Shown: positions 15,020 to 30,297 of the stretch, in pieces
Layout of the letters: each line of letters begins with the position of its first letter
How positions within the stretch are numbered: position 1 is the stretch's first letter
The notes under the pieces: generated by a model
What the model was told of the DNA's origin: nothing
Database searches by the model: none
The model's input: the letters and a program-made list of their open reading frames with translations, nothing else
NCBI RefSeq assembly: GCF_000732725.1
Contig: NZ_JPNB01000002.1
Span: 248,001 to 312,000, forward strand
Direction: 5' to 3'
Source: Kineothrix alysoides
GTDB taxonomy: Bacteria > Bacillota > Clostridia > Lachnospirales > Lachnospiraceae
Length of the DNA: 64,000 nucleotides
Made by a program: the position numbers and the translations under genes

Positions 15020-17506
15020 TCATTTTTCCATATCTCTTATCCTTGCATACCATGTATGTTTTTCACCAGCTTTTTTCCGGGCAGCGTCTGCAATCTTCTG
15101 CGCTGCGTCGGGATTTTCCAATATTCTATTAATAATTTCCGGCACTTCTTCCATATGTTGTAGATTATAACTAATATAATCTTTATTTCGTTCAAATTCC
15201 TCACTTAGATATTTACTGTCATCCGTAACACAAAGTGCACCTGCAAGCATGGCATTTATTACCCTGTCATGGATTCCATCCTTGAACCAAGGCATAGTAT
15301 TGAGTACAATTTTGCTGTCCAGCATTTTCTTTAAACATTCATCCTGCGTCATCACCCCATGACATATAAGATGCGGATTGTCATAGTATTCCGAATTTTC
15401 CCAGCCTTCTCCGCATATCTCTACATCAATTCCTGCATAGATCAGTCTGGCTACTACTTCCTTTCTAAAATAAAATTTTAAATATATATCTACCATTCTA
15501 TTTTCTTCAATTACATGCTTTATGTACATATCATCTGCCGCCGGCTGTTCCAACGCAATTTTTTCTTCAATTGCCCATTCCAAAGTCTTATATGGATGCT
15601 TTATCAGTTCTTCAATGAGCACCTTCTGCCAGACACCAAACTGATCAAATTCCTCACGATATTTATAGCTGCCAGTAAATAAAACCTTGGTATTTCTGTC
15701 TGCAATCTTCTTGCAAAATCCATTACTTACATCCTCTCCTGCCAACGGAAGGAAAATATTTTTTTGAACTTTCTTATTGAATCTTTCTGCATAATCCACA
15801 TGATTCCTATCCACATAAGCGGCAATTCCATATTGAGGAGCTTTATCCAGCGTATCAAAATAATAAAACGGATGGTCCAGCATATAATTGATGCAGGGAA
15901 CCTCACAAACATCCCATATGTTTTTTCCATTTATTTTCAGCAACCATCCTCTATTATTAAAAATAATTGCTTTTTCAACCCCCGTTCGCAATATATGCAT
16001 AAAATTATCCGGGTTCTCTATTATCTGAGCTACAAACATTTCATATACTTTGTATCCGATACCTTTATATGCCTTTACCAATTGACGTGCAGTATAATTG
16101 AGAATATCGTTCTCATCCTCTATTATTACTATCTTTTTTTGTTTATCCCTTCTTTTGCTTGCCCGGATCACATACTGAAATGTTTCAAACATAAAAAACT
16201 CTGCATTTGGCTCTAAGTCTATCAAACGCTGTATATACAGCTTGTCCTCTCTTTTTAAGTCCAAGCAATCGCTGACAATCTCATCTATATTATAATTACA
16301 CGCTTCAAACATACGGATAATCTCATTGTAAGTAAACATATGGATATGTGTTTTATCAAGCAAGCCTGTGTCGGAATAAGTAAAATTGCCTGCAACCAAA
16401 TCTCTTATAACCGATACATGCATCAAATTCGGTATACTTGCAATAATGCACCCATCGTCCTTTAAATAATCACTACAATATTTTATAACTGACGCCGGAT
16501 CCTTTAGGTGCTCAAGCACATCTCCAAAGATGATGTAATCAAACATTGATTTTTCGTATGGAAATGCCTGTTCCTCCAGATTTCCTACTTCCACCTTCGC
16601 TACGAAAGAGGCTATCTTAGCCGCCCGGGGATTTATTTCATATCCGTATATCCCGGCATTAGGATACCGGTTCTTTATTTCTACAAGAGTTGCACCGCAA
16701 TCGCATCCTACTTCTAATATGGTTAACTCACTATCGGTGTTATGTGTCATCATCTGAATCAAATTAGGATTATATGTTGTATTGAAATAATTCATACCCC
16801 ATTTATCTTTTATGTTATTTCTATCCTTTTCTGCCATAAGTCCCTTATATTTTTCGGATATTTTATCTGGGAGCATGCAATAGGCTATGGCATTAGGAAT
16901 ATTTATCAACGTAAACTTTTTTGTCATAACCCTGAAAAGATAATCTTGAATTACGCTCTCTGCAAGGAGAAACTGTTCATCAAATCTCCCCACTTTATTC
17001 ACCACATCTCCTCTTATTAAAACAGCATATTCCGCCAGGCCTACTACTTGCTTCATCACAAGCTCATTATTTTCCCCTGCAAGCAAAACAGCCGTTTGAT
17101 AATCCACCGCACTATGTCCGTCAAAAGACTTATCCCCGCAAAATGCCGGTCCCACTGCTCCTATCTCCGCTTTGGAATATAACCCTTGCAGCATTCTGGA
17201 AATACAACCCGGCGTTATGACAAATTGAGGGAACATAAGTAAAAAATCACCTTTTATGCTGAATAAATCAATAGCAGTATTAATTACTTTTGCATATCCA
17301 GTAAGACCTTCCTCTATCGTAGCATAGGCTATATCTCTCTGTAAAGAAAGCCACTCAGCAGTTCCGTCTATGGAGGCATTGTCTATAATCACAACCTGCA
17401 AATTGTCCACATCTCCAAATCTCCTTATGGAGTCAAGACAAATTTCAAGTTCCGGCTTTTCATTATGTACAACTATAATAACGGTTACCAAACGCCCTCT
17501 ATTCAT
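15020..17506 (-). CDS. GT2-methyltransferase-CgeB-like trifunctional glycosyltransferase
   Basis: An 828-residue fusion. Residues 1-230 are GT2 (VTVIIVVHNE, IDNASIDGTAEW, VITPGCISRML). Residues 255-440 are a SAM methyltransferase (ILEVGCDCGATL, YIIFGDVLEHLKDP). Residues 465-828 are a CgeB/DUF3880-type glycosyltransferase (VCEVPCINYMLDHPFYYFD, LNTMPWFKDGIHDRVINAML). Such fusions are expected to build and methylate a sugar side chain in one polypeptide. No Shine-Dalgarno precedes the ATG at 17506. IS110 sequence begins within about 15 bp upstream, and a stranded AAAAAGGA lies beyond the element's far end (19033-19040). A TTG at codon 6 preceded by AGAGGG could be a weak replacement start. Confidence 0.8.
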   Translation of the reverse strand: MNRGRLVTVIIVVHNEKPELEICLDSIRRFGDVDNLQVVIIDNASIDGTAEWLSLQRDIAYATIEEGLTGYAKVINTAIDLFSIKGDFLLMFPQFVITPGCISRMLQGLYSKAEIGAVGPAFCGDKSFDGHSAVDYQTAVLLAGENNELVMKQVVGLAEYAVLIRGDVVNKVGRFDEQFLLAESVIQDYLFRVMTKKFTLINIPNAIAYCMLPDKISEKYKGLMAEKDRNNIKDKWGMNYFNTTYNPNLIQMMTHNTDSELTILEVGCDCGATLVEIKNRYPNAGIYGYEINPRAAKIASFVAKVEVGNLEEQAFPYEKSMFDYIIFGDVLEHLKDPASVIKYCSDYLKDDGCIIASIPNLMHVSVIRDLVAGNFTYSDTGLLDKTHIHMFTYNEIIRMFEACNYNIDEIVSDCLDLKREDKLYIQRLIDLEPNAEFFMFETFQYVIRASKRRDKQKKIVIIEDENDILNYTARQLVKAYKGIGYKVYEMFVAQIIENPDNFMHILRTGVEKAIIFNNRGWLLKINGKNIWDVCEVPCINYMLDHPFYYFDTLDKAPQYGIAAYVDRNHVDYAERFNKKVQKNIFLPLAGEDVSNGFCKKIADRNTKVLFTGSYKYREEFDQFGVWQKVLIEELIKHPYKTLEWAIEEKIALEQPAADDMYIKHVIEENRMVDIYLKFYFRKEVVARLIYAGIDVEICGEGWENSEYYDNPHLICHGVMTQDECLKKMLDSKIVLNTMPWFKDGIHDRVINAMLAGALCVTDDSKYLSEEFERNKDYISYNLQHMEEVPEIINRILENPDAAQKIADAARKKAGEKHTWYARIRDMEK

Positions 17507-17520
17507 AAATCACGTATAAT

Positions 17521-17788
17521 CCAATTATCTCAGATGGTAATTGGATTTTTCCTTTCTCCCAGATTCTCTGGGCATTTTAATCCATCTCTGATATATTTGA
17601 TAAGGCACTGTGGATCTGTACCTATATATTTACAGCTTTGACTGTTCCGAGGTGACTCAGACCACAGCTTTTCGTCTATTACTGTTGATCAGTTTGTTAA
17701 CGCCTGACGTTTCTATTTACGTGATTACACAGCCGGATTCTCTGTGGAAGACAACAGTGCCAAAATACATATCAGGAGGTATAACTCT
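17521..17788 (+). ncRNA. candidate bridge RNA region of the IS110 element
   Basis: Non-coding sequence between the element's left end and the transposase start, containing several hairpins: CCAATTA...TAATTGG (17521-17544), CCCAG...CTGGG (17558-17572) and CACAG...CTGTG (17728-17746). ACAGCTTT is repeated near 17631 and 17664. IS110-group elements are known to express a bridge RNA from this position whose loops pair with target and donor DNA. Loop assignments were not attempted. Confidence 0.5.
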
Positions 17789-18964
17789 ATGTCGATGTAC
17801 TTTATTGGAATTGATATTTCCAAGTACAAACATGATTGCTGTATTATTTCAGCAACGGATCAAAAGGTTGTTTCAAAGTTTTCTATTAAAAATGATAAGG
17901 CAGGCTTTGAACAGCTACTCACTATTTTTCATTCTCTCTCCAATCCTCAGGACATAAAGATAGGGTTTGAATCAACAGCCCACTATGCCCTCAATCTTGA
18001 ACTCTTCCTTGAAAATGCCAACCACAGCTTCATGGAAATTAATCCAGTTCTCATCAAGGAATACAAGAAATCCACATCTCTAAGGCGAACCAAGACCGAC
18101 TCTGTTGACTGCGAATCAATAGCCCGGTGGTTAATGACTGTCGAGTACAAACCCCACTCAAAAGGATTTTACCACGCTTATTCCTTAAAGTCATTAACTC
18201 GTTTGCGTGACAGACTAGTTCGACAGCGTTCTTTTTATCTTGTAAAGATTACCAATGTGCTGGATCACACCTTCCCCGAATTCAAGCCCTTCTTTCATGA
18301 GCGTTTCTCTAAGACCGCTCTGTATCTGCTTGAAAACTACGGTTCCGCCGAAAAGATGGCAAGAATGAATTCCGCATCCTATGAGAAGCTCCGCTCTTTA
18401 TCAAGGGGTAATTTTTCTCCCCAACAGTTCCTTCGGTTAAAGGAGCTTGCCGCCAATACGGTCGGTGTAAACAACTCTATTTTTGATGTGGAACGGAACA
18501 GCCTGCTCACCCTGTACCAGTCTCTCGTAAAAGAGATTGACACGCTTGAAACAGAAATCAACAAGCTGATCGAGGAAGTACATCCTCACTATATGTCTGT
18601 TCCTGGCATCGGGACTATATCTGCCGCCGTTATCTATTCGGAATATGGAGATATATCGAACTTTTCAACACCAGCCCAGATGCTCGCATTTGCAGGGATC
18701 GAACCAGGTGTAAACGATTCCGGAACAGAATCACACGGAGGACGGATGGTAAAACATGGCTCACCGGGGCTCCGGTATGTCCTCATCAATTGCTGCCTTC
18801 CTTTAATCCGCTTTGATATGACATTCGCCGCCTACTATGCGAAAAAACGGGGAGAAGGCAAGCCCCACAGGGTTGCTATCACTCATGTGGCAAAGAAACT
18901 TGTTAGAGTCATCCATGCATTGGAGAGGCAAGGGGTAGACTTTAACGCTCAGAAGCTCCAATAG
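17789..18964 (+). CDS. IS110-family transposase
   Basis: A 391-residue recombinase. The ATG at 17789 has AGGAGG about 10 bases upstream. The N-terminal RuvC-like DEDD domain shows FIGIDISKYKHD, IGFEST and KTDSVDCESIARWL. The C-terminal Transposase_20 domain shows SVPGIGTISAAVIYSEYG, FAGIEPGVNDSGT (including the family's serine) and HGSPGLRYVLI. Length and domain order are normal, and the frame is intact, so the enzyme may be active. Confidence 0.9.
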   Translation: MSMYFIGIDISKYKHDCCIISATDQKVVSKFSIKNDKAGFEQLLTIFHSLSNPQDIKIGFESTAHYALNLELFLENANHSFMEINPVLIKEYKKSTSLRRTKTDSVDCESIARWLMTVEYKPHSKGFYHAYSLKSLTRLRDRLVRQRSFYLVKITNVLDHTFPEFKPFFHERFSKTALYLLENYGSAEKMARMNSASYEKLRSLSRGNFSPQQFLRLKELAANTVGVNNSIFDVERNSLLTLYQSLVKEIDTLETEINKLIEEVHPHYMSVPGIGTISAAVIYSEYGDISNFSTPAQMLAFAGIEPGVNDSGTESHGGRMVKHGSPGLRYVLINCCLPLIRFDMTFAAYYAKKRGEGKPHRVAITHVAKKLVRVIHALERQGVDFNAQKLQ

Positions 18965-19032
18965 CAGCTGTATCATAAGAACATCATTATCCCATCTGAA
19001 ATACGGTGTTTTCAGATGACTTGTTTGCTATA

Positions 19033-19040
19033 TCCTTTTT
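19033..19040 (-). promoter_or_regulatory. stranded Shine-Dalgarno upstream of the IS110 insertion
   Basis: Minus-strand AAAAAGGA lies about 34 bases after the stop of the CgeB-like gene, where the next gene of the operon should begin. Instead IS110 sequence follows, and the next gene start (17506) is about 1.5 kb away. It is probably the original ribosome binding site of the 15020-17506 gene. Confidence 0.45.
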
Positions 19041-19073
19041 TATCACTAAAGAATCTTTTTAAAAACCCCTTGA

Positions 19074-20252
19074 CTATTTATAGTTTGTCACCTCTAATAT
19101 TGTATCTACTCTTTCTTTATAGGTATGATACTTCTTCACTTTTTCATATCCATTTCTTGCGATTTCTTCCCTTTCCTTTTCATGGACTAAATAATAATCA
19201 GCTTTGTTTAATAAATCATCGTAATCTTCATAGTACACATAATCTTGTCCGGGAATAAAATACTCCAGAAAATCCTCCTGATAATTTGATAGCAAAAATC
19301 CCCCACATCCCATAATATCAAACGCTCTAAGAGGAATGCCGGAAATAATACTTTTTAAAGAAACATTTAAATTGATTTTGGAGCATTTATAAATCACTGG
19401 ACCTTCTTGCATGACTTCCGCTGTTCCCCTGTTATTAACTTTAGGAAGACGGGGAGTCTGTTCGTACGTATAAAAATCGACATGAAATCTTTCCGAAAGC
19501 AGTCCAAGTATTTCCTGCCTCTCCAGAGCAGTAACATGTCTGGCCAGAAAATAATGTGCATAAACCCATGCAAGCCGTTCAAATCCGTCTTGATTAACTA
19601 CTGTTGGGCAAACTCTTTGTAAATCTTCCATAATTTCCGGTGTCAACATACTTTCAAGAATAAACTTACCATAGACTTTTTTTTGTACTTGAATGCAACC
19701 GTCCAGATACCCTTTTGTATATTCTTTTAATCCCGACAACCTTTCATAGAAACAATTCTTCTGTTCGCTATATGTGGAACCAATAAAAGAAAGCTGTGTA
19801 CCATAAAATTTGCGCAGCTCATCATTTATTATATAGCCGTCATATCTCTCTACTGGAGCCGCCATAGGTAGATAATATACCGAATTAGCTCCATGCGCCC
19901 ATAAATCCAAACACACAGCTTTATCAAATACGAAGATATAATTATAAGGAAAAAATATGGTATTGGAATACAATTGTATAAAGGGACTATCAAACGTCCA
20001 TGACACATACTTTACCATGCAAGCATTAGATGCTATAGCGACAACAGGAAAATAGTTAAAAGAAAAAATAAAATCATAGTTTTTTCCTGCAATCGTCCTG
20101 ATGAGCTTTTCTCCTAACTCCATATTCAGTCTTGTATTCTCCGTTTCTCTTGGAAAAGAATAAAAATCTACAATATATCCTCGCCTCTTAAATTCTGCTG
20201 TTATGTCAATCTGACCCAGACTTTTCCATTCTATAAATAAAATCCGCACCAT
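19074..20252 (-). CDS. CgeB-like glycosyltransferase (paralogue 1)
   Basis: A 392-residue protein of the CgeB/DUF3880 type: an N-terminal GT-B half (ILFIEWKSLGQIDI, VSWTFDSPFIQLYS, YYLPMAAPVE) and a C-terminal Glyco_trans_1_2 half (LSFIGSTYSEQ, GIPLRAFDIMGCGGFLLSNY, DYVYYEDYDDLL). It shares these blocks with the proteins at 21311-22480 and 23141-24940, so the three are tandem paralogues. CgeB-like proteins are inferred glycosyltransferases named from B. subtilis spore-coat genes. The acceptor here is probably flagellin or a surface polymer. Confidence 0.8.
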   Translation of the reverse strand: MVRILFIEWKSLGQIDITAEFKRRGYIVDFYSFPRETENTRLNMELGEKLIRTIAGKNYDFIFSFNYFPVVAIASNACMVKYVSWTFDSPFIQLYSNTIFFPYNYIFVFDKAVCLDLWAHGANSVYYLPMAAPVERYDGYIINDELRKFYGTQLSFIGSTYSEQKNCFYERLSGLKEYTKGYLDGCIQVQKKVYGKFILESMLTPEIMEDLQRVCPTVVNQDGFERLAWVYAHYFLARHVTALERQEILGLLSERFHVDFYTYEQTPRLPKVNNRGTAEVMQEGPVIYKCSKINLNVSLKSIISGIPLRAFDIMGCGGFLLSNYQEDFLEYFIPGQDYVYYEDYDDLLNKADYYLVHEKEREEIARNGYEKVKKYHTYKERVDTILEVTNYK

Positions 20253-20380
20253 ATTCCTCCGATTTCTATTGTCATTTTATATTATAATATATCGGTTGCA
20301 TAAGAATCTTTAATAATCACTAAAAAATAAATGCCATGTTGTTAAATCAATGATTTTTTCTCAACACTTTACTATTATGA

Positions 20381-20386
20381 TATAAT
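20381..20386 (+). promoter_or_regulatory. -10 box for the fucosyltransferase gene
   Basis: TATAAT lies 40 bases before the ATG at 20426, after an AT-rich stretch. The -35 is weak. The gene is on the strand opposite to its neighbours and needs its own promoter. Confidence 0.4.
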
Positions 20387-20425
20387 GAAGAAAATTATAT
20401 GCCATTATGAGTTAAAGGAGAGGTT

Positions 20426-21304
20426 ATGAAAATTCAATATTTAAATGGCGGTCTTGCCAATCAAGTATTTCAATATATATTTGTGCGCTTTGCAGAATTA
20501 TATAATCCTTCGGACGAGCCCTGGTTCATTGATGATTCTTTCTTTTTCGTAAATAATGTGCATAACGGATATGAACTGGAAAAAGTATTTGGTATACAAG
20601 CTAATCTTTTGAGTAAGAGTTTTGATCCTGATGTTTGGCTGGAATTTATTAAAAACAAAAAAGAAGGAATCAGCATTGCTCAATCCTTTAAAAATCTGGG
20701 ACTTAACGTACAAATGATTGCAGAAACAATTAACTATCAAGAGCACAATCCCTTTGATGGCAAAATATTTCAAGTCCCTTCTAACGAGTTCCACCCAGAA
20801 ATAACAAAATTCCCAGGTGAGGTAATTTATTATCACGGATATTGGATTAATACAAAGTGGTTCCGAACCTACCGCCATATATTAGAAAGAGAGTTGTCCT
20901 TTCCAATAATAATTGACGAAAAAAATAATGCTTATGCTTCACATATCTTATCTTCTCTATCGATTGGCATTCATATACGTCGGGGCGACTATGTGAGTAT
21001 TGGTTGGGCGCTGTCCGATACATATTATTTTCAATCAATGGAAAAGTTAACAAAAGAACATCCTGACGCCGTTTTTTTTATTTTTTCCGACGATATTACT
21101 TGGTGTCGTACTAATTCAGATTCTTTAGGATTAACACTGGCAAAAAATTTAGTATTTGTAGAAGGAAATACACAAGACTCCAACTATATCGATTTGCAGC
21201 TAATGAGTATGTGCAGCGGATTACTTATGTCCAACAGCGCTTTCTGCTATCTTGCAGCCCTGTTGAATACACGTTTAAAGTTTTGTACTGAACCGCCAAG
21301 ATGA
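20426..21304 (+). CDS. alpha-1,2-fucosyltransferase family (GT11) protein
   Basis: A 292-residue protein starting MKIQYLNGGLANQVFQYIF, the GT11 N-terminal block. The signature SIGIHIRRGDYVSIGW (HxRRGDY) binds GDP-fucose, and FFIFSDDITWC and LMSMCSGLLMSNSAFCYLAA are the later family motifs. AAAGGAGAGG precedes the ATG. GT11 enzymes transfer fucose to galactose or related sugars of surface glycans. It lies on the plus strand inside a minus-strand array of CgeB-like genes and ends 7 bp from the convergent gene, which suggests separate acquisition. Confidence 0.85.
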   Translation: MKIQYLNGGLANQVFQYIFVRFAELYNPSDEPWFIDDSFFFVNNVHNGYELEKVFGIQANLLSKSFDPDVWLEFIKNKKEGISIAQSFKNLGLNVQMIAETINYQEHNPFDGKIFQVPSNEFHPEITKFPGEVIYYHGYWINTKWFRTYRHILERELSFPIIIDEKNNAYASHILSSLSIGIHIRRGDYVSIGWALSDTYYFQSMEKLTKEHPDAVFFIFSDDITWCRTNSDSLGLTLAKNLVFVEGNTQDSNYIDLQLMSMCSGLLMSNSAFCYLAALLNTRLKFCTEPPR

Positions 21305-21310
21305 TCGTTT

Positions 21311-22480
21311 CTAATCATTAATAATCTGTAAAATTTCTTCAATACGCTTTTGATATGTATGATATTTTTTTACCTTCTCATAGCCATTGCGGGCAATCTG
21401 CTTACGCTCTTCCTCATGAGTAAGATAATAATCCGCTTTACGCATTAAGTCCTCATAGTCACTATATAATACAATATCTTCCCCTGGAACAAAATGTTCC
21501 AAAACATCCTCCTGATAGTTGCTAAGCACAAAACCTCCGCTTCCCATGATTTCCATTATCCGGAGCGGAATTCCTGTCACTATACTCCTGAGCGTAACGT
21601 TAAGATTAATTTTAGCACACTTGTAAACTAATATGGCCTCTCGCATATTATTTGCACTTCCTTGGTTTATTACATTTATCAGTTCCGGGGTCTGCGAGTG
21701 TGTATATAAATGCACCTGATATCTCTCTGCCAGCATATTCAAAACTTCTTCACGCTCTATTGCTGTGATTTTTCTTGCCAATATATATCTTGCATAATAC
21801 CACTCTTGAGTACGTGTATCATCCGGATATAGCGGTACAGGGCACGCACTCTCTAATTCAGGAATTACTGGGGTCAACATCTTATCTATTATAAATTTAC
21901 CATATATCCTTTTTTGCGCCTGAATAATTCCATCCATATATCCCTTGGCAAACTCACTTACTCCTTCTGTTAAATTATATAACTGATTTTTTTTCTCATT
22001 ATAAGTGGAACCAACAAATGCTATATCTGTTGTATACTTTGTTTTTTGCTCTTCGGTCGGTATCATCCCATCATATATTTCCACCGGAGCCGCCATAGGA
22101 AGATAATATACGGTTTCAGCCCCTCTTCTTTTCAGATCAAGATAGGTCTCTTTGTCAAATATAAAGGCATAATTATAAGGATAGGATATCGTTCGGGAAT
22201 ATAGCGCCACGTTCGGGCTATCATAAGTCCAAGACACATATTTTATTCTGCACGCATTGCAAGCCAGAGATACTACGGGAAAATAATTAGTGGAAAATAC
22301 AAAATCATATTTATCCTCTGCAATCTTCTTTACCAGTTTTTCACCCATCTGAGGATTATGACGCATATCTTCCATACGAATAGGATAGTTAAAAAAGTCA
22401 ACAATATATCCCGCTTCAATGAAGGTTTCTACAATATATGCCAGTCCAAAACTCTCCCATCCTATTACCAGTATTGTCAT
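21311..22480 (-). CDS. CgeB-like glycosyltransferase (paralogue 2)
   Basis: A 389-residue protein with the same architecture as paralogue 1: ILVIGWESFGLAYI, VSWTYDSPNVALYS, YYLPMAAPVE, IAFVGSTYNEKKN, GIPLRIMEIMGSGGFVLSNY. Its start overlaps the preceding StrF-like gene by 4 bp (ATGA type), so the two are translationally coupled. It is probably a retaining GT-B enzyme of the flagellar or surface glycan pathway. Confidence 0.8.
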   Translation of the reverse strand: MTILVIGWESFGLAYIVETFIEAGYIVDFFNYPIRMEDMRHNPQMGEKLVKKIAEDKYDFVFSTNYFPVVSLACNACRIKYVSWTYDSPNVALYSRTISYPYNYAFIFDKETYLDLKRRGAETVYYLPMAAPVEIYDGMIPTEEQKTKYTTDIAFVGSTYNEKKNQLYNLTEGVSEFAKGYMDGIIQAQKRIYGKFIIDKMLTPVIPELESACPVPLYPDDTRTQEWYYARYILARKITAIEREEVLNMLAERYQVHLYTHSQTPELINVINQGSANNMREAILVYKCAKINLNVTLRSIVTGIPLRIMEIMGSGGFVLSNYQEDVLEHFVPGEDIVLYSDYEDLMRKADYYLTHEEERKQIARNGYEKVKKYHTYQKRIEEILQIIND

Positions 22481-23160
22481 CTTCCTTCATTCCTTTCCAC
22501 TATCTCTTCTCCATATTCCGCCAAAAACATCTGTCTATATTTATCATAATTCCATAGGCTGATTATCCCTTTGTCATCATGAATATACCAATCTTGATTC
22601 TGTAAGGGTACCACAATCGAATATCCTTTTCTTTTCATTTCAAAGCATTGAGATATATCATAATAATCCCATCCATCAAATAAATCTTCCCTCCATGGCA
22701 AGTCATACTGTGTCACCATAAGCAATCCATCTACTGCATCTACGCTCCAGTAACCATCCTTATCAAGTTCATATCTATATTTTTCCCATAATACATTTCC
22801 ATTTCCTCTGCTCACTCTTTCCCCATGCCACATAATACCGTCCTTTGGCATATTGAGGCATCCTACTAATCCAATCATGCCAATCCGGAAATCCTTCTTA
22901 AATATCTGCAGAACATCATAAATAAAGTATTTATTAATAATAAAAACATCTTGATGCATATATACCTTATATTTCGCATCATTGCAACGCATCCCCTCAT
23001 TATAGCCGGAAGTCATAGAGGCTGCCTCTCTTACTTCTACAAGCTCTATTTCTATCCCTTCCGGCTTTTCCAACCAATTAATATATTTAATACATTCGTC
23101 AAAAAAGAGAGTATCATTCACACAAATAATAAAGCATATCTTATTTTCGTTTATTCCCAT
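22477..23160 (-). CDS. StrF-like glycosyltransferase family 2 protein
   Basis: A 227-residue protein that begins with ICFIICVNDTLFFDECIKYI, then EVREAASMTSGYNEGM, KYKVYMHQDVFI and SVDAVDGLLMVTQYDLPW. These are hallmarks of the small GT2-like family around the StrF domain (Glyco_tranf_2_5), in which MHQDV is the DxD-like segment. It overlaps the upstream paralogue 3 gene by 20 bp and the downstream paralogue 2 gene by 4 bp, so all three form one operon. Confidence 0.8.
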   Translation of the reverse strand: MGINENKICFIICVNDTLFFDECIKYINWLEKPEGIEIELVEVREAASMTSGYNEGMRCNDAKYKVYMHQDVFIINKYFIYDVLQIFKKDFRIGMIGLVGCLNMPKDGIMWHGERVSRGNGNVLWEKYRYELDKDGYWSVDAVDGLLMVTQYDLPWREDLFDGWDYYDISQCFEMKRKGYSIVVPLQNQDWYIHDDKGIISLWNYDKYRQMFLAEYGEEIVERNEGR

Positions 23161-24940
23161 ATCTCTCCCCCAGCTTCTGTATCTCTTCTTCTAGCTTTTC
23201 TTTATCCCGTATCTGTGCCGCATGTAATATATGCATCAAAGCAATCACTGATAATTTCTCTGTTTGAATATTATCTATTACCCATTTCTCATCTTCCTGT
23301 CCTATTCCGTACTCTATCCTTCGAAGATAAAATACAGTTTCCAAATAAAGCCGGCATAAATCCTCTATACTACTATGTTGAAGTACACTCGGTTCTTTTC
23401 CAGATTCGAAATATTGTGTCAATTCTTTAATATATATATTTATAAAAGTATATAAATAATCAAATTCCCAGAAAACAGCTCTCAGTTCCTTGGAGAAATT
23501 CCGGTTGTACCAAATAATCACTTCTGCCCATGCCTCCATGGATCTTTGGCACAGTAACTGATTTATATAGTTTATCAACTGCTCCTTCAACTGAAAAAAA
23601 AGTTCTTTTTCTTGCCCCATCAGGAAAAAAAGACTATCTATCGTATCCGCCTTTACTTCATCAGGATTATTCGTATAACGGCATAACTCTTGATGCCAGC
23701 ATATGTTTCCATTCTTTGTTCTCAAATCTTCTAACTGCTGCATCGTATCAAAAATCTCTATTTCTCCTTCTTTGAAAATTATCGCCAATATCGTAAGGAT
23801 ACGGTGATAATATGTATGTGATTTTTTAACCTTATTATAGCCATTCCAAGCTATCCGTTCTCTTTCTTCTTCATGCTCCAGATAATAAGCCACTTTTTCA
23901 AGCAAGTCTTCTTCATTTGTATAATAAACATAGTCCTCTCCCGGAATAAAGAAATTCAAGAAATCTTCTTGATAATTTGTTAGAAGAAAACCACCGCACC
24001 CCATAATATCCATTGCCCTTAATGGAATTCCTGTATGTATACTCCTCAGTGTCATATTTAAATTAATCTTGCTGTTTTTGAATACGAGGGGCATCTCCTT
24101 CACATAATCTACAGTCCCCTTATTGTTTACCCCAGGAATGTGAAGAGTATAATCGGGCGTGTATAAGGTCATCTGATGATTTTGAGCCAAAAGCTTTAGT
24201 GCATTCATCCGTTCCTTACCGGTCATATGCCTGGCAAAAAAATAATTCGCATATATCCATGCATCCGTCTCCCATTCATCCTCTCCCCTTTTTATTGGGC
24301 ATACAGCACGCAGCTTCTGCAATATTATTTCATCCAACAATTCCTCCAGGAAAAAAACCTCTTGTATCTCATGCTGCATATTCATAATCCCTTGCAAATA
24401 CCCTTTAGCATAATCATCAACTCCCTCCAGCAGCTTCATGAAGTCCTGATTGTCTTCCTGATAAGTAGATCCTACAAAAGAAATATCGCTCGAATAAACC
24501 TCTTGATCATTCCTATTATCTATACTGTCATAATACTCTACCGGGGCTGCCATAGGCAGATAATAGACGGTCTTTATTCCCTGGTCGCAAAACTCCTTAT
24601 ACAAAGAATAATCAAAAAGAAATACATAATTAGTGGCACAGGAAAGATATTTAGAATAAAGCAATAAAAAAGGCGAATCGTATACCCACGATACATACTT
24701 TGTCCCGCAGTTATAGCAGGCATTAGCCGCAACTGGGTAAAAGTTGAGCGAGAATACGAAGTGATATGTTTTTTCCTTTAATGAGCTCTCAAGGGCATTC
24801 CTAAGACGTTCATTCTCTCTCATGTTTTCTTCTTTGGTGTCCCATGTATACATGGTAATATTGCAATTACACCTTTTCAACTCTGCTATTATATACTCTT
24901 GCCCGAAGCTGTCCCATTCTAAAAATAATACTTCTATCAT
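23141..24940 (-). CDS. CgeB-like glycosyltransferase (paralogue 3) with C-terminal extension
   Basis: About 599 residues from the ATG at 24940, which has GGAG 9 bases upstream and starts the conserved strand MIEVLFLEWDSFGQEYI; an upstream ATG is only 6 bases away. Residues 1-385 match paralogues 1 and 2 (VSWVYDSPFLLLYS, YYLPMAAPVE, ISFVGSTYQEDN, GIPLRAMDIMGCGGFLLTNY). The last 200 residues are helical, unrelated to anything I recognise, and absent from the other two. It is the first island gene after flagellin, beginning about 30 bp past the flagellin terminator, so it may be expressed by read-through. Confidence 0.8.
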   Translation of the reverse strand: MIEVLFLEWDSFGQEYIIAELKRCNCNITMYTWDTKEENMRENERLRNALESSLKEKTYHFVFSLNFYPVAANACYNCGTKYVSWVYDSPFLLLYSKYLSCATNYVFLFDYSLYKEFCDQGIKTVYYLPMAAPVEYYDSIDNRNDQEVYSSDISFVGSTYQEDNQDFMKLLEGVDDYAKGYLQGIMNMQHEIQEVFFLEELLDEIILQKLRAVCPIKRGEDEWETDAWIYANYFFARHMTGKERMNALKLLAQNHQMTLYTPDYTLHIPGVNNKGTVDYVKEMPLVFKNSKINLNMTLRSIHTGIPLRAMDIMGCGGFLLTNYQEDFLNFFIPGEDYVYYTNEEDLLEKVAYYLEHEEERERIAWNGYNKVKKSHTYYHRILTILAIIFKEGEIEIFDTMQQLEDLRTKNGNICWHQELCRYTNNPDEVKADTIDSLFFLMGQEKELFFQLKEQLINYINQLLCQRSMEAWAEVIIWYNRNFSKELRAVFWEFDYLYTFINIYIKELTQYFESGKEPSVLQHSSIEDLCRLYLETVFYLRRIEYGIGQEDEKWVIDNIQTEKLSVIALMHILHAAQIRDKEKLEEEIQKLGERYGNKRK

Positions 24941-24969
24941 ATCCATATTCTCCGAATTGTTGTTTTTAG

Positions 24970-25003
24970 GTAAAGAAAAGAGGATTGACAAGTGTCAATC
25001 CTC
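24970..25003 (-). terminator. flagellin intrinsic terminator
   Basis: On the minus strand GAGGATTGACA, a short loop and TGTCAATCCTC are followed by TTTTCTTTACC. It lies 19 bases after the flagellin stop. Confidence 0.85.
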
Positions 25004-25021: not shown

Positions 25022-25849
25022 TTACTGTAACAAGGACAATACACCCTGATTAGTCTGATTAGCCTGAGCAAGCATTGCCTGACCTGCCTGAGCAAGGATA
25101 TTGTTGTTAGAGTATTTAACCATCTCTGTAGCCATATCCGTATCACGAACTCTGGACTCTGCTGCTGTAGTATTCTCAACGATATTATCCAAGTTGCTGA
25201 TAGTATGCTCCAAACGATTCTGATATGCACCGAGGGACGATCTCTGAGATGCGACCTTTTCAAGAGCATCCTTTACTGTTGTTATATAAGTTCCTGCAGT
25301 TGCACCAGTTGTATCAGAAGACCAAGACAGCCCTGTTCCTGAAGTAAGCCCTAAATCCGTTGCTCTCATAGCCTTTGTTTGAAGCGATAACTGCTCACTA
25401 TTCTCAGCACCAATCTGCAAACCGAATGTTTTATCTGCAGAGAATAAAAGCTGATCATTGAACTTCGTTGTAGTAGCGATTCTATCAATTTCTGATGTTA
25501 ATTGGTTGATTTCATCAGAGATATATCCTCTCTGAGTCGTTGTGTAAGTACCATTAGCTGATTTTACAGAAAGCTCATTCATTCTCTGAAGCATATCCTG
25601 AACTTCTGCAAGAGCACCTTCTGCGGTCTGTGCTAAGGAAACACCATCCTGAGCGTTTGTAGAAGCCTGTGTAAGACCTCTGATCTGACGTCTCATTTTT
25701 TCAGAGATGGAAAGTCCTGCTGCATCATCTGCTGCACGGTTAATCTTGTAACCGGAAGATAACTTCTCAGTTGATTTAGCCTGTGCATTAGTTGTGATAC
25801 CTAACATTCTGTTAGAGTTCATTGCTGTAAGATTGTGTTGTACTACCAT
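25022..25849 (-). CDS. hag: flagellin
   Basis: A 275-residue minimal flagellin. The N-terminal D0/D1 (VVQHNLTAMNSNRMLGITT, LSSGYKINRAADDAAGLSIS) and C-terminal D1/D0 (ESRVRDTDMATEMVKYS, ILAQAGQAMLAQANQTNQGV) are joined by a short Ser/Thr-rich stretch at about 165-195 (TSGTGLSWSSDTTGATAG). That stretch is the likely surface-exposed O-glycosylation zone. A sigma-28 promoter lies at 25973-25999, the leader carries two candidate CsrA hairpins, and a strong terminator follows. The ribosome binding site AAGGAGG is about 8 bases before the ATG. Filament subunit exported through the flagellar type III system. Confidence 0.97.
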   Translation of the reverse strand: MVVQHNLTAMNSNRMLGITTNAQAKSTEKLSSGYKINRAADDAAGLSISEKMRRQIRGLTQASTNAQDGVSLAQTAEGALAEVQDMLQRMNELSVKSANGTYTTTQRGYISDEINQLTSEIDRIATTTKFNDQLLFSADKTFGLQIGAENSEQLSLQTKAMRATDLGLTSGTGLSWSSDTTGATAGTYITTVKDALEKVASQRSSLGAYQNRLEHTISNLDNIVENTTAAESRVRDTDMATEMVKYSNNNILAQAGQAMLAQANQTNQGVLSLLQ

Positions 25850-25852
25850 AGT

Positions 25853-25890
25853 ATATTCCTCCTTGAATATGTAGTGGCTTCCTTGCCACT
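25853..25890 (-). promoter_or_regulatory. twin CsrA-type hairpins in the flagellin leader
   Basis: In the mRNA, AGTGGC-AAGGAA-GCCACT (25890-25873) is followed after 2 nt by ATATTC-AAGGAG-GAATAT (25870-25853). Each has a 6-bp stem and a hexaloop holding the ANGGA core of CsrA sites. The second loop is the flagellin Shine-Dalgarno. Bacillus CsrA is known to repress hag by binding two such leader sites, with FliW relieving it. Confidence 0.7.
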
Positions 25891-25972
25891 TGTTTTTTGT
25901 AATGCTTTCTTCGGACCGTACGCTTCCTCTGTAAACATTAAATTTTGTAAGTAATTGTTTTACTTGTAATAT

Positions 25973-25999
25973 ATATCGGCTCGAATTCGAGATACTTTA
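25973..25999 (-). promoter_or_regulatory. sigma-28 promoter of flagellin
   Basis: Minus-strand TAAA, exactly 15 bases, then GCCGATAT. This matches the flagellar sigma-28 consensus TAAA-N15-GCCGATAA at 11 of 12 positions. Transcription would start about 115 bases before the ATG. Confidence 0.9.
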
Positions 26000-29622: not shown

Positions 29623-29841
29623 CTATACTAAAAATTTTTTTAGCGCATCCAGACTTTCCACATCTACAGATGCTTTGTTCTCATTCTGTATCTGCACATA
29701 CACTTCTTTACGGTATATAGGAACTTCCTTAGGTGCTGTAATTCCTATCTTTACCTGCTCACCCTTTATTTCTAAAATAGTAATCTCAATGTTATTATTA
29801 ATAATCAAAGCTTCATTTTTCTTTCTGGATAAGGCTAGCAT
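29623..29841 (-). CDS. csrA: carbon storage regulator CsrA
   Basis: A 72-residue RNA-binding protein: MLALSRKKNEALIINNNIEI, ILEIKGEQVKIGITAPKEV and the RNA-binding segment PIYRKEVYVQIQNEN. It begins one base from the fliW stop and is last in the flgM operon. CsrA dimers block ribosome binding sites bearing ANGGA loops; the flagellin and flaG leaders in this window carry such loops. FliW binds CsrA and antagonises it until flagellin titrates FliW away. Confidence 0.97.
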   Translation of the reverse strand: MLALSRKKNEALIINNNIEITILEIKGEQVKIGITAPKEVPIYRKEVYVQIQNENKASVDVESLDALKKFLV

Positions 29842-30297
29842 CTATTCACCCGCTTTCTTTGCCTGAAGGATGTCATAGATAGGATATTTAACCTGATATT
29901 CATCTCCCTCTATAATTACCTGACATGCTTTTCTTTCCCCAGTATTAATAACGATGGGACCTTTTAAGTTCACAGTCATCTGGGTTAAGTCCTGAGGCAC
30001 AGTGACGGTTACAAGCACCAATAACTCCTCCAAATCAAGTTCACCGAGAGGCTTAATCCACTCTTCCTCCACTTCCGGATTATAATCCGGCTTTACCACC
30101 AGCGGATCCATGACCGGCATCGCGAACGCCGGTTCCTGCAAAGATTGAAGCCAATGAATCGATCCGGCTCCCGTCTCTTTGTCGTGAATCATCGTAAACT
30201 TCGTCAACTCAGAAAAACCTACAATCCCTTTCGGAAATGTAATAACCTTTTCTTCATCTATTGTAATCTCACCAAATGCTTTTGTTTGTATTATCAT
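29842..30297 (-). CDS. fliW: flagellar assembly factor FliW
   Basis: A 151-residue beta-barrel protein with family blocks IQTKAFGEITIDEEKVITFP, GIVGFSELTKF and LVTVTVPQDLTQMTVNLKGP, ending with YPIYDILQ. FliW binds CsrA allosterically and also binds flagellin, coupling flagellin translation to secretion. It is directly adjacent to csrA, the standard pairing in Firmicutes. Confidence 0.95.
   Translation of the reverse strand: MIIQTKAFGEITIDEEKVITFPKGIVGFSELTKFTMIHDKETGAGSIHWLQSLQEPAFAMPVMDPLVVKPDYNPEVEEEWIKPLGELDLEELLVLVTVTVPQDLTQMTVNLKGPIVINTGERKACQVIIEGDEYQVKYPIYDILQAKKAGE

Follow-up and report, generated by a model that had tools for sequence, protein, structure and literature searches.

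The flagellin gene of Kineothrix alysoides that lies in the window (the whole 64,000-nucleotide stretch of DNA analyzed here) is preceded by two adjacent GGA-loop hairpins, H1 and H2. They very probably constitute a translational operator of the flagellin mRNA, by analogy with known systems, at which a CsrA dimer would sit over the Shine-Dalgarno (SD) sequence until relieved by FliW. A third hairpin, H0, is found between the promoter and this pair and displays a six-nucleotide palindrome in its loop. Judging from sequence comparison, there is an even chance that in many Firmicutes (Bacilli and Lachnospirales) a hairpin of this type is conserved in flagellin mRNAs, just upstream of the CsrA operator, as a kissing loop through which two messages would dimerize, with an effect on mRNA stability, location or response to CsrA.

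Table 1. Features of the flagellin leader and the csrA-fliW locus (positions within the window)
Feature	Position	Strand	Description
Flagellin gene	25022..25849	-	275 aa; Flagellin_N + Flagellin_C
H2 (hairpin 2)	25853..25870	-	ATATTC-AAGGAG-GAATAT; likely CsrA site, BS2-like; SD in loop
H1 (hairpin 1)	25873..25890	-	AGTGGC-AAGGAA-GCCACT; likely high-affinity CsrA site, BS1-like
H0	25900..25940	-	Between promoter and twin hairpins; outer stem TAATGTTT/AAGCATTA (25940-25933 with 25907-25900)
H0 inner part	25927-25925 with 25915-25913	-	3-bp stem GGA/TCC beyond internal loop; 9-nt loop AGCGTACGG
Palindrome CGTACG	25917..25922	-	Core of H0 loop; candidate kissing-loop site
5'-terminal small hairpin	25949..25965	-	AAGTAA...TTACTT, near expected mRNA 5' end
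Sigma-28 (SigD)-type promoter	25974..25999	-	TAAA-N16-CCGATA; consensus match by eye and regular expression
csrA	29623..29841	-	72 aa; Pfam CsrA 88 bits, residues 1-52; C-terminal extension past CsrA domain
fliW	29842..30297	-	151 aa; Pfam FliW 138 bits; PDB 5dmb/5jak FliW

The twin hairpins occur on the minus strand exactly as originally predicted for positions 25853-25890. Two nucleotides (AC) separate them, and H2 is followed on this strand by ACT and then by the flagellin ATG at 25849. When the pair is folded alone, both hairpins are present in the minimum-free-energy and the centroid structure at -12.8 kcal/mol, compared with -3.9 +/- 1.8 kcal/mol for shuffled sequences (z = -4.98; 0 of 200 as good), and both form again in the fold of the 131-nucleotide leader (z = -3.1). 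The leader therefore contains two GGA sites, one in an upstream hairpin loop and one over the SD. The ANGGA loop core ascribed to them is indeed there, both loops reading AAGGA, although the fuller consensus that they satisfy is the hexaloop ANGGAN. The original prediction also described the two hairpins as identical in design, which is accurate within the genus but not outside it, where H2 usually has only two to four pairs.

The comparison drew on the flagellin loci of 61 relatives, 79 named genome contigs, 200 family genomes and 61 Bacilli, and on further leaders that were fetched individually. Of the 137 related leaders in the first set, 99 have, upstream of the SD, a hairpin with GGA in its loop and a stem of 5 bp or more, compared with 2.8% of shuffles, and the loops of H1 and H2 conform to ANGGAN nearly everywhere among related leaders. 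All six H1 pairs covary with changes on both sides among 107 distinct leaders (0 of 2000 shuffles for each pair). In a gap-free alignment of 30 rows, which were selected for a 20-nucleotide spacing, two-sided changes again appear at all six H1 pairs, 92% of the cells pair, and the whole twin structure scores 0.404, as opposed to 0.127 when shuffled and at most 0.104 when slid.

Covariation had been anticipated for both stems, and for H2 it extends only to the inner part. The two pairs next to the H2 loop (C-G and U-A) are kept, with an AU-for-UA swap at the second of them in some species (0 of 2000 shuffles), but the outer pairs 4-6 exhibit no covariation beyond shuffles in related leaders. 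The widely conserved part of H2, as judged from these alignments, is the CsrA consensus (A/U)C-ANGGAG-G(A/U) over the SD. Because the outer pairs elsewhere are no better than shuffled, the 6-bp stem is largely confined to the window's genus, where it probably improves the hexaloop in which the SD is presented.

The distance from GGA to GGA peaks at 20 nucleotides, the value in 67 of the 139 leaders from outside the Bacilli, and in most leaders overall, Bacilli included, it falls within 19-25 nucleotides. CsrA is able to bridge sites that are 10-63 nucleotides apart, with an optimum of about 18 (PMC7652899), and the 20 nucleotides between H1 and H2 are inside this range for a single dimer.

The csrA and fliW genes that were expected in the window are recognized at 29623-30297, and the csrA product finds its best PDB match in the CsrA chain of 5dmb, a FliW-CsrA complex. 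The two genes share a strand with the flagellin gene and are separated from it by about 4 kb that contains FlaG, FliD and FliS. Among the 200 family genomes, 111 have a flagellin match and 108 have csrA above the cut-off. No ANGGAN hairpin of at least 5 bp was found in the flagellin leaders read from five genomes without a csrA or fliW match (G008, G010, G017, G042 and G048), two of which are only 83-90% complete. The exception is G003, where the twin hairpins are present and neither csrA nor fliW gives a match; this assembly consists of 710 contigs, so the absence is possibly an assembly gap. Second, divergent csrA paralogues, as open frames of about 100-140 aa, occur directly upstream of long flagellin genes at several other sites (G004:C79, G016:C90, G031:C144 and C292, G058:C97, G144, G162, G176 and G298), and each of them perhaps represses a single flagellin to which it is dedicated.

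The combination of ANGGAN hexaloops, an SD in the second loop, spacing near 20 nucleotides, a covarying first stem, csrA-fliW 4 kb away and the absence of H1 where csrA is absent supports the CsrA/FliW interpretation, which is the best reading of the leader, as the original prediction of a CsrA-dimer site had it. These structural, positional, covariation and co-occurrence data come from the present analysis; for CsrA binding, bridging by a single dimer, repression and relief by FliW, we infer from the Bacillus and Campylobacter systems. One CsrA dimer would place one pocket on the GGA of H1 and the other on the GGA of H2, which is the SD, and ribosome initiation would be blocked. FliW would take CsrA and free the flagellin mRNA. 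Unexported flagellin would capture FliW, which would return CsrA to the leader and halt flagellin synthesis.

This is a known type of flagellin leader control that is not new in kind. In the Campylobacter jejuni flaA leader, two neighboring hairpins carry ANGGA in hexaloops spaced 21 nucleotides apart, the second hairpin covers the ribosome-binding site, and the pair covaries and has an affinity for CsrA of about 50 nM (PMC4894983). The present leader resembles this SL1/SL2 arrangement in its adjacent ANGGA hexaloops, the way the second covers the ribosome-binding site, compensatory changes, a spacing of 20-21 nucleotides and an antagonist that is FliW rather than an sRNA. It differs in that C. 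jejuni belongs to an unrelated phylum, that control is proven there and predicted here, and that the flaA leader is only 45 nucleotides long, so it has no room for H0. The original prediction called the compact twin geometry striking. We have dropped the view that it is unusual, since it matches the proven flaA leader and is the common form in Lachnospiraceae.

The Bacillus subtilis hag leader likewise has two CsrA sites, BS1 and BS2, at 51-55 and 75-82 (PMC8523840), of which the second overlaps the SD, and FliW as the antagonist (Yakhnin 2007 and Mukherjee 2011, as cited in PMC7652899 and PMC8523840). The hag sites are somewhat further apart, and the H2 stem described here is longer. The Clostridioides difficile fliC leader is similar in having two CsrA sites, AAGGATG and AAGGAGG, which are also predicted only (PMC8523840), and we found no published structural alignment of it.

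Two interpretations of H1 and H2 dispense with CsrA. H2 alone might be a brake in which the SD-side stem slows ribosome loading or senses temperature, with H1 serving only to stabilize the mRNA. In favor of such a brake, H2 is A/U-rich and marginally stable, and the SD lies partly within its 3' stem. The AAGGAG core is in the loop and not hidden, however, and outside the genus the ANGGAG core persists without the long stem. H1, moreover, holds its GGA loop at a near-fixed distance and is missing where csrA is missing, and we regard the brake as very improbable. It is extremely improbable that both hairpins are general 5'-UTR stabilizers that answer to no regulator. The leader does contain several stable hairpins, but the loop sequence is conserved as well as the stem, with ANGGAN nearly everywhere, and the stems vary freely with compensation while the GGA does not.

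Transcription is expected to begin at about 25967, as judged from the sigma-28-type element, and the great majority of related leaders have the same element. The AAGTAA/TTACTT hairpin recurs in many Lachnospiraceae leaders and in all 12 leaders of the genus alignment, and it is perhaps a 5'-end stabilizer. Two other flagellin genes in this genome (C1:51605 and C2:961717) do not have H1 and H2. Control of this kind would thus apply to a single gene of the three, and the flagellin genes within one cell appear to be differently controlled. A block of glycosyltransferase genes (15020-24991) beside the flagellin gene perhaps serves flagellin glycosylation; the one product tested matched Glyco_trans_1_2 and DUF3880, and an IS110-family transposase (17744-18964) lies within the block. 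Beside one Bacilli flagellin locus (L144, 615-985, minus strand) there is a group I intron (Rfam RF00028, 83.5 bits).

H0 is strongly non-random. All 12 genus leaders (L005-L016), which were not selected for palindromes, have a six-nucleotide palindrome in the H0 loop, whether CGTACG, CCTAGG or CGCGCG. CGTACG is the most frequent in other Lachnospirales, where CCTAGG, CGATCG and others also occur. In Bacilli the H0 position mostly carries CGGCCG, commonly as GCGGCCGA inside stems that vary, such as AAGG-GCGGCCGA-CCTT in L140-type leaders and TAAG-GCGGCCGA-CTTA in L139. The inverted repeat that flanks the palindrome covaries. Whole-leader MAFFT alignment of the genus misaligned the palindromes, and H0 was therefore analyzed anchored on its loop.

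A strict finder detects the H0 palindrome hairpin in 67 of 237 flagellin leaders. Its rate is 0.2% among shuffles and 0.9% among random segments from the same loci, and in 567 regions upstream of other genes with an SD it gives 1 hit. The hits in flagellin leaders include 24 of 43 Bacilli leaders with H1 and 34 of 140 among the others; most Lachnospiraceae leaders outside the clear cases failed this finder. A palindrome-blind screen, which takes the best hairpin with an 8- or 9-nucleotide loop from each leader, yields perfectly palindromic cores in 51 of 239, as opposed to 1.7% of dinucleotide shuffles. This screen and the strict finder with its real-sequence controls replaced a first, fold-based screen that was weak (20 of 95 versus 5%) because the minimum-energy fold often pairs C and G inside the loop. 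A purine stands directly 5' of the palindrome in 60 of 67 cases and directly 3' of it in 63 of 67. A flagellin tree built for 55 leaders with H0 implies at least 12 changes of palindrome type. Since the rows of the tree were selected for the palindrome, the genus set and the palindrome-blind screen are the fair tests; in the structural pair count, the 100% pairing of palindrome positions likewise reflects row selection, and only changes from one palindrome to another are informative.

The replacement of palindrome by palindrome suggests that two flagellin mRNAs kiss loop to loop, and this mechanism is plausible. Viewed purely as sequence, H0 resembles a DIS in its self-complementary apical hexamer, its purine flanks and the retention of self-complementarity while the letters change. 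It shares a six-nucleotide GC-rich palindrome in the apical loop with the HIV-1 DIS and the oskar mRNA kissing loops, and flanking unpaired purines with the HIV-1 DIS (PMC7357161). In contrast to those elements, which belong to a viral genome and a eukaryotic 3' UTR, H0 lies in a bacterial flagellin 5' UTR and its dimerization is predicted only. The calculated duplex energies of its hexamers range from -8.6 (CGUACG) to -12.9 kcal/mol (CGGCCG), compared with -13.9 kcal/mol for the HIV-like GCGCGC.

The main rivals of the kissing loop both fit the changing palindromes poorly. The palindrome of H0 might be a DNA site for a dimeric transcription factor a short way past the promoter: palindromes are typical of such sites, and this one is located about 50 bp below the expected start. 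The sequence of a protein site would be held constant, however, whereas one palindrome is exchanged here for an unrelated one both inside a single genus and from family to family, and the inverted repeat around it covaries. We consider this interpretation unlikely. That the H0 loop pairs with some other RNA and not with itself is quite unlikely. Any RNA with a complementary stretch can serve a kissing loop as partner, but pairing with a foreign RNA would not require the loop to be its own complement. Moreover, AGCGTACGG occurs nine times in the genome, and of the eight copies that were retrieved and inspected, the copy in this leader alone has a flanking stem.

H0 is apparently undescribed so far; no mention of it was found in the open-access literature, so its novelty is not proven, and Rfam scans of the window region and 17 related loci returned nothing relevant and no family over H0. 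In five leaders (L042, L044, L049, L066 and L217) a larger structured element replaces H0. Its complementary segments TTCGCACA and TGTGCGAA are possibly an intramolecular kissing pair, and Rfam gave no relevant match for the element in L042, L044, L049 and L066.

The twin hairpins would extend the proven CsrA-FliW flagellin checkpoint to the Lachnospiraceae, which are major motile gut commensals with immune-active flagellins, and H1-H2 offers a clean RNA for tests of dimer bridging. H0 would be of greater importance. Functional RNA homodimers are very rare, and we are aware of no conserved example of this type in the leader of a bacterial message. If the proposed pairing is true, H0 would place the flagellin message beside HIV genomes and oskar mRNA as a conserved homodimerizing mRNA from bacteria, and if real it would reside in a message that motile Firmicutes, tractable Bacilli included, express at a high level.
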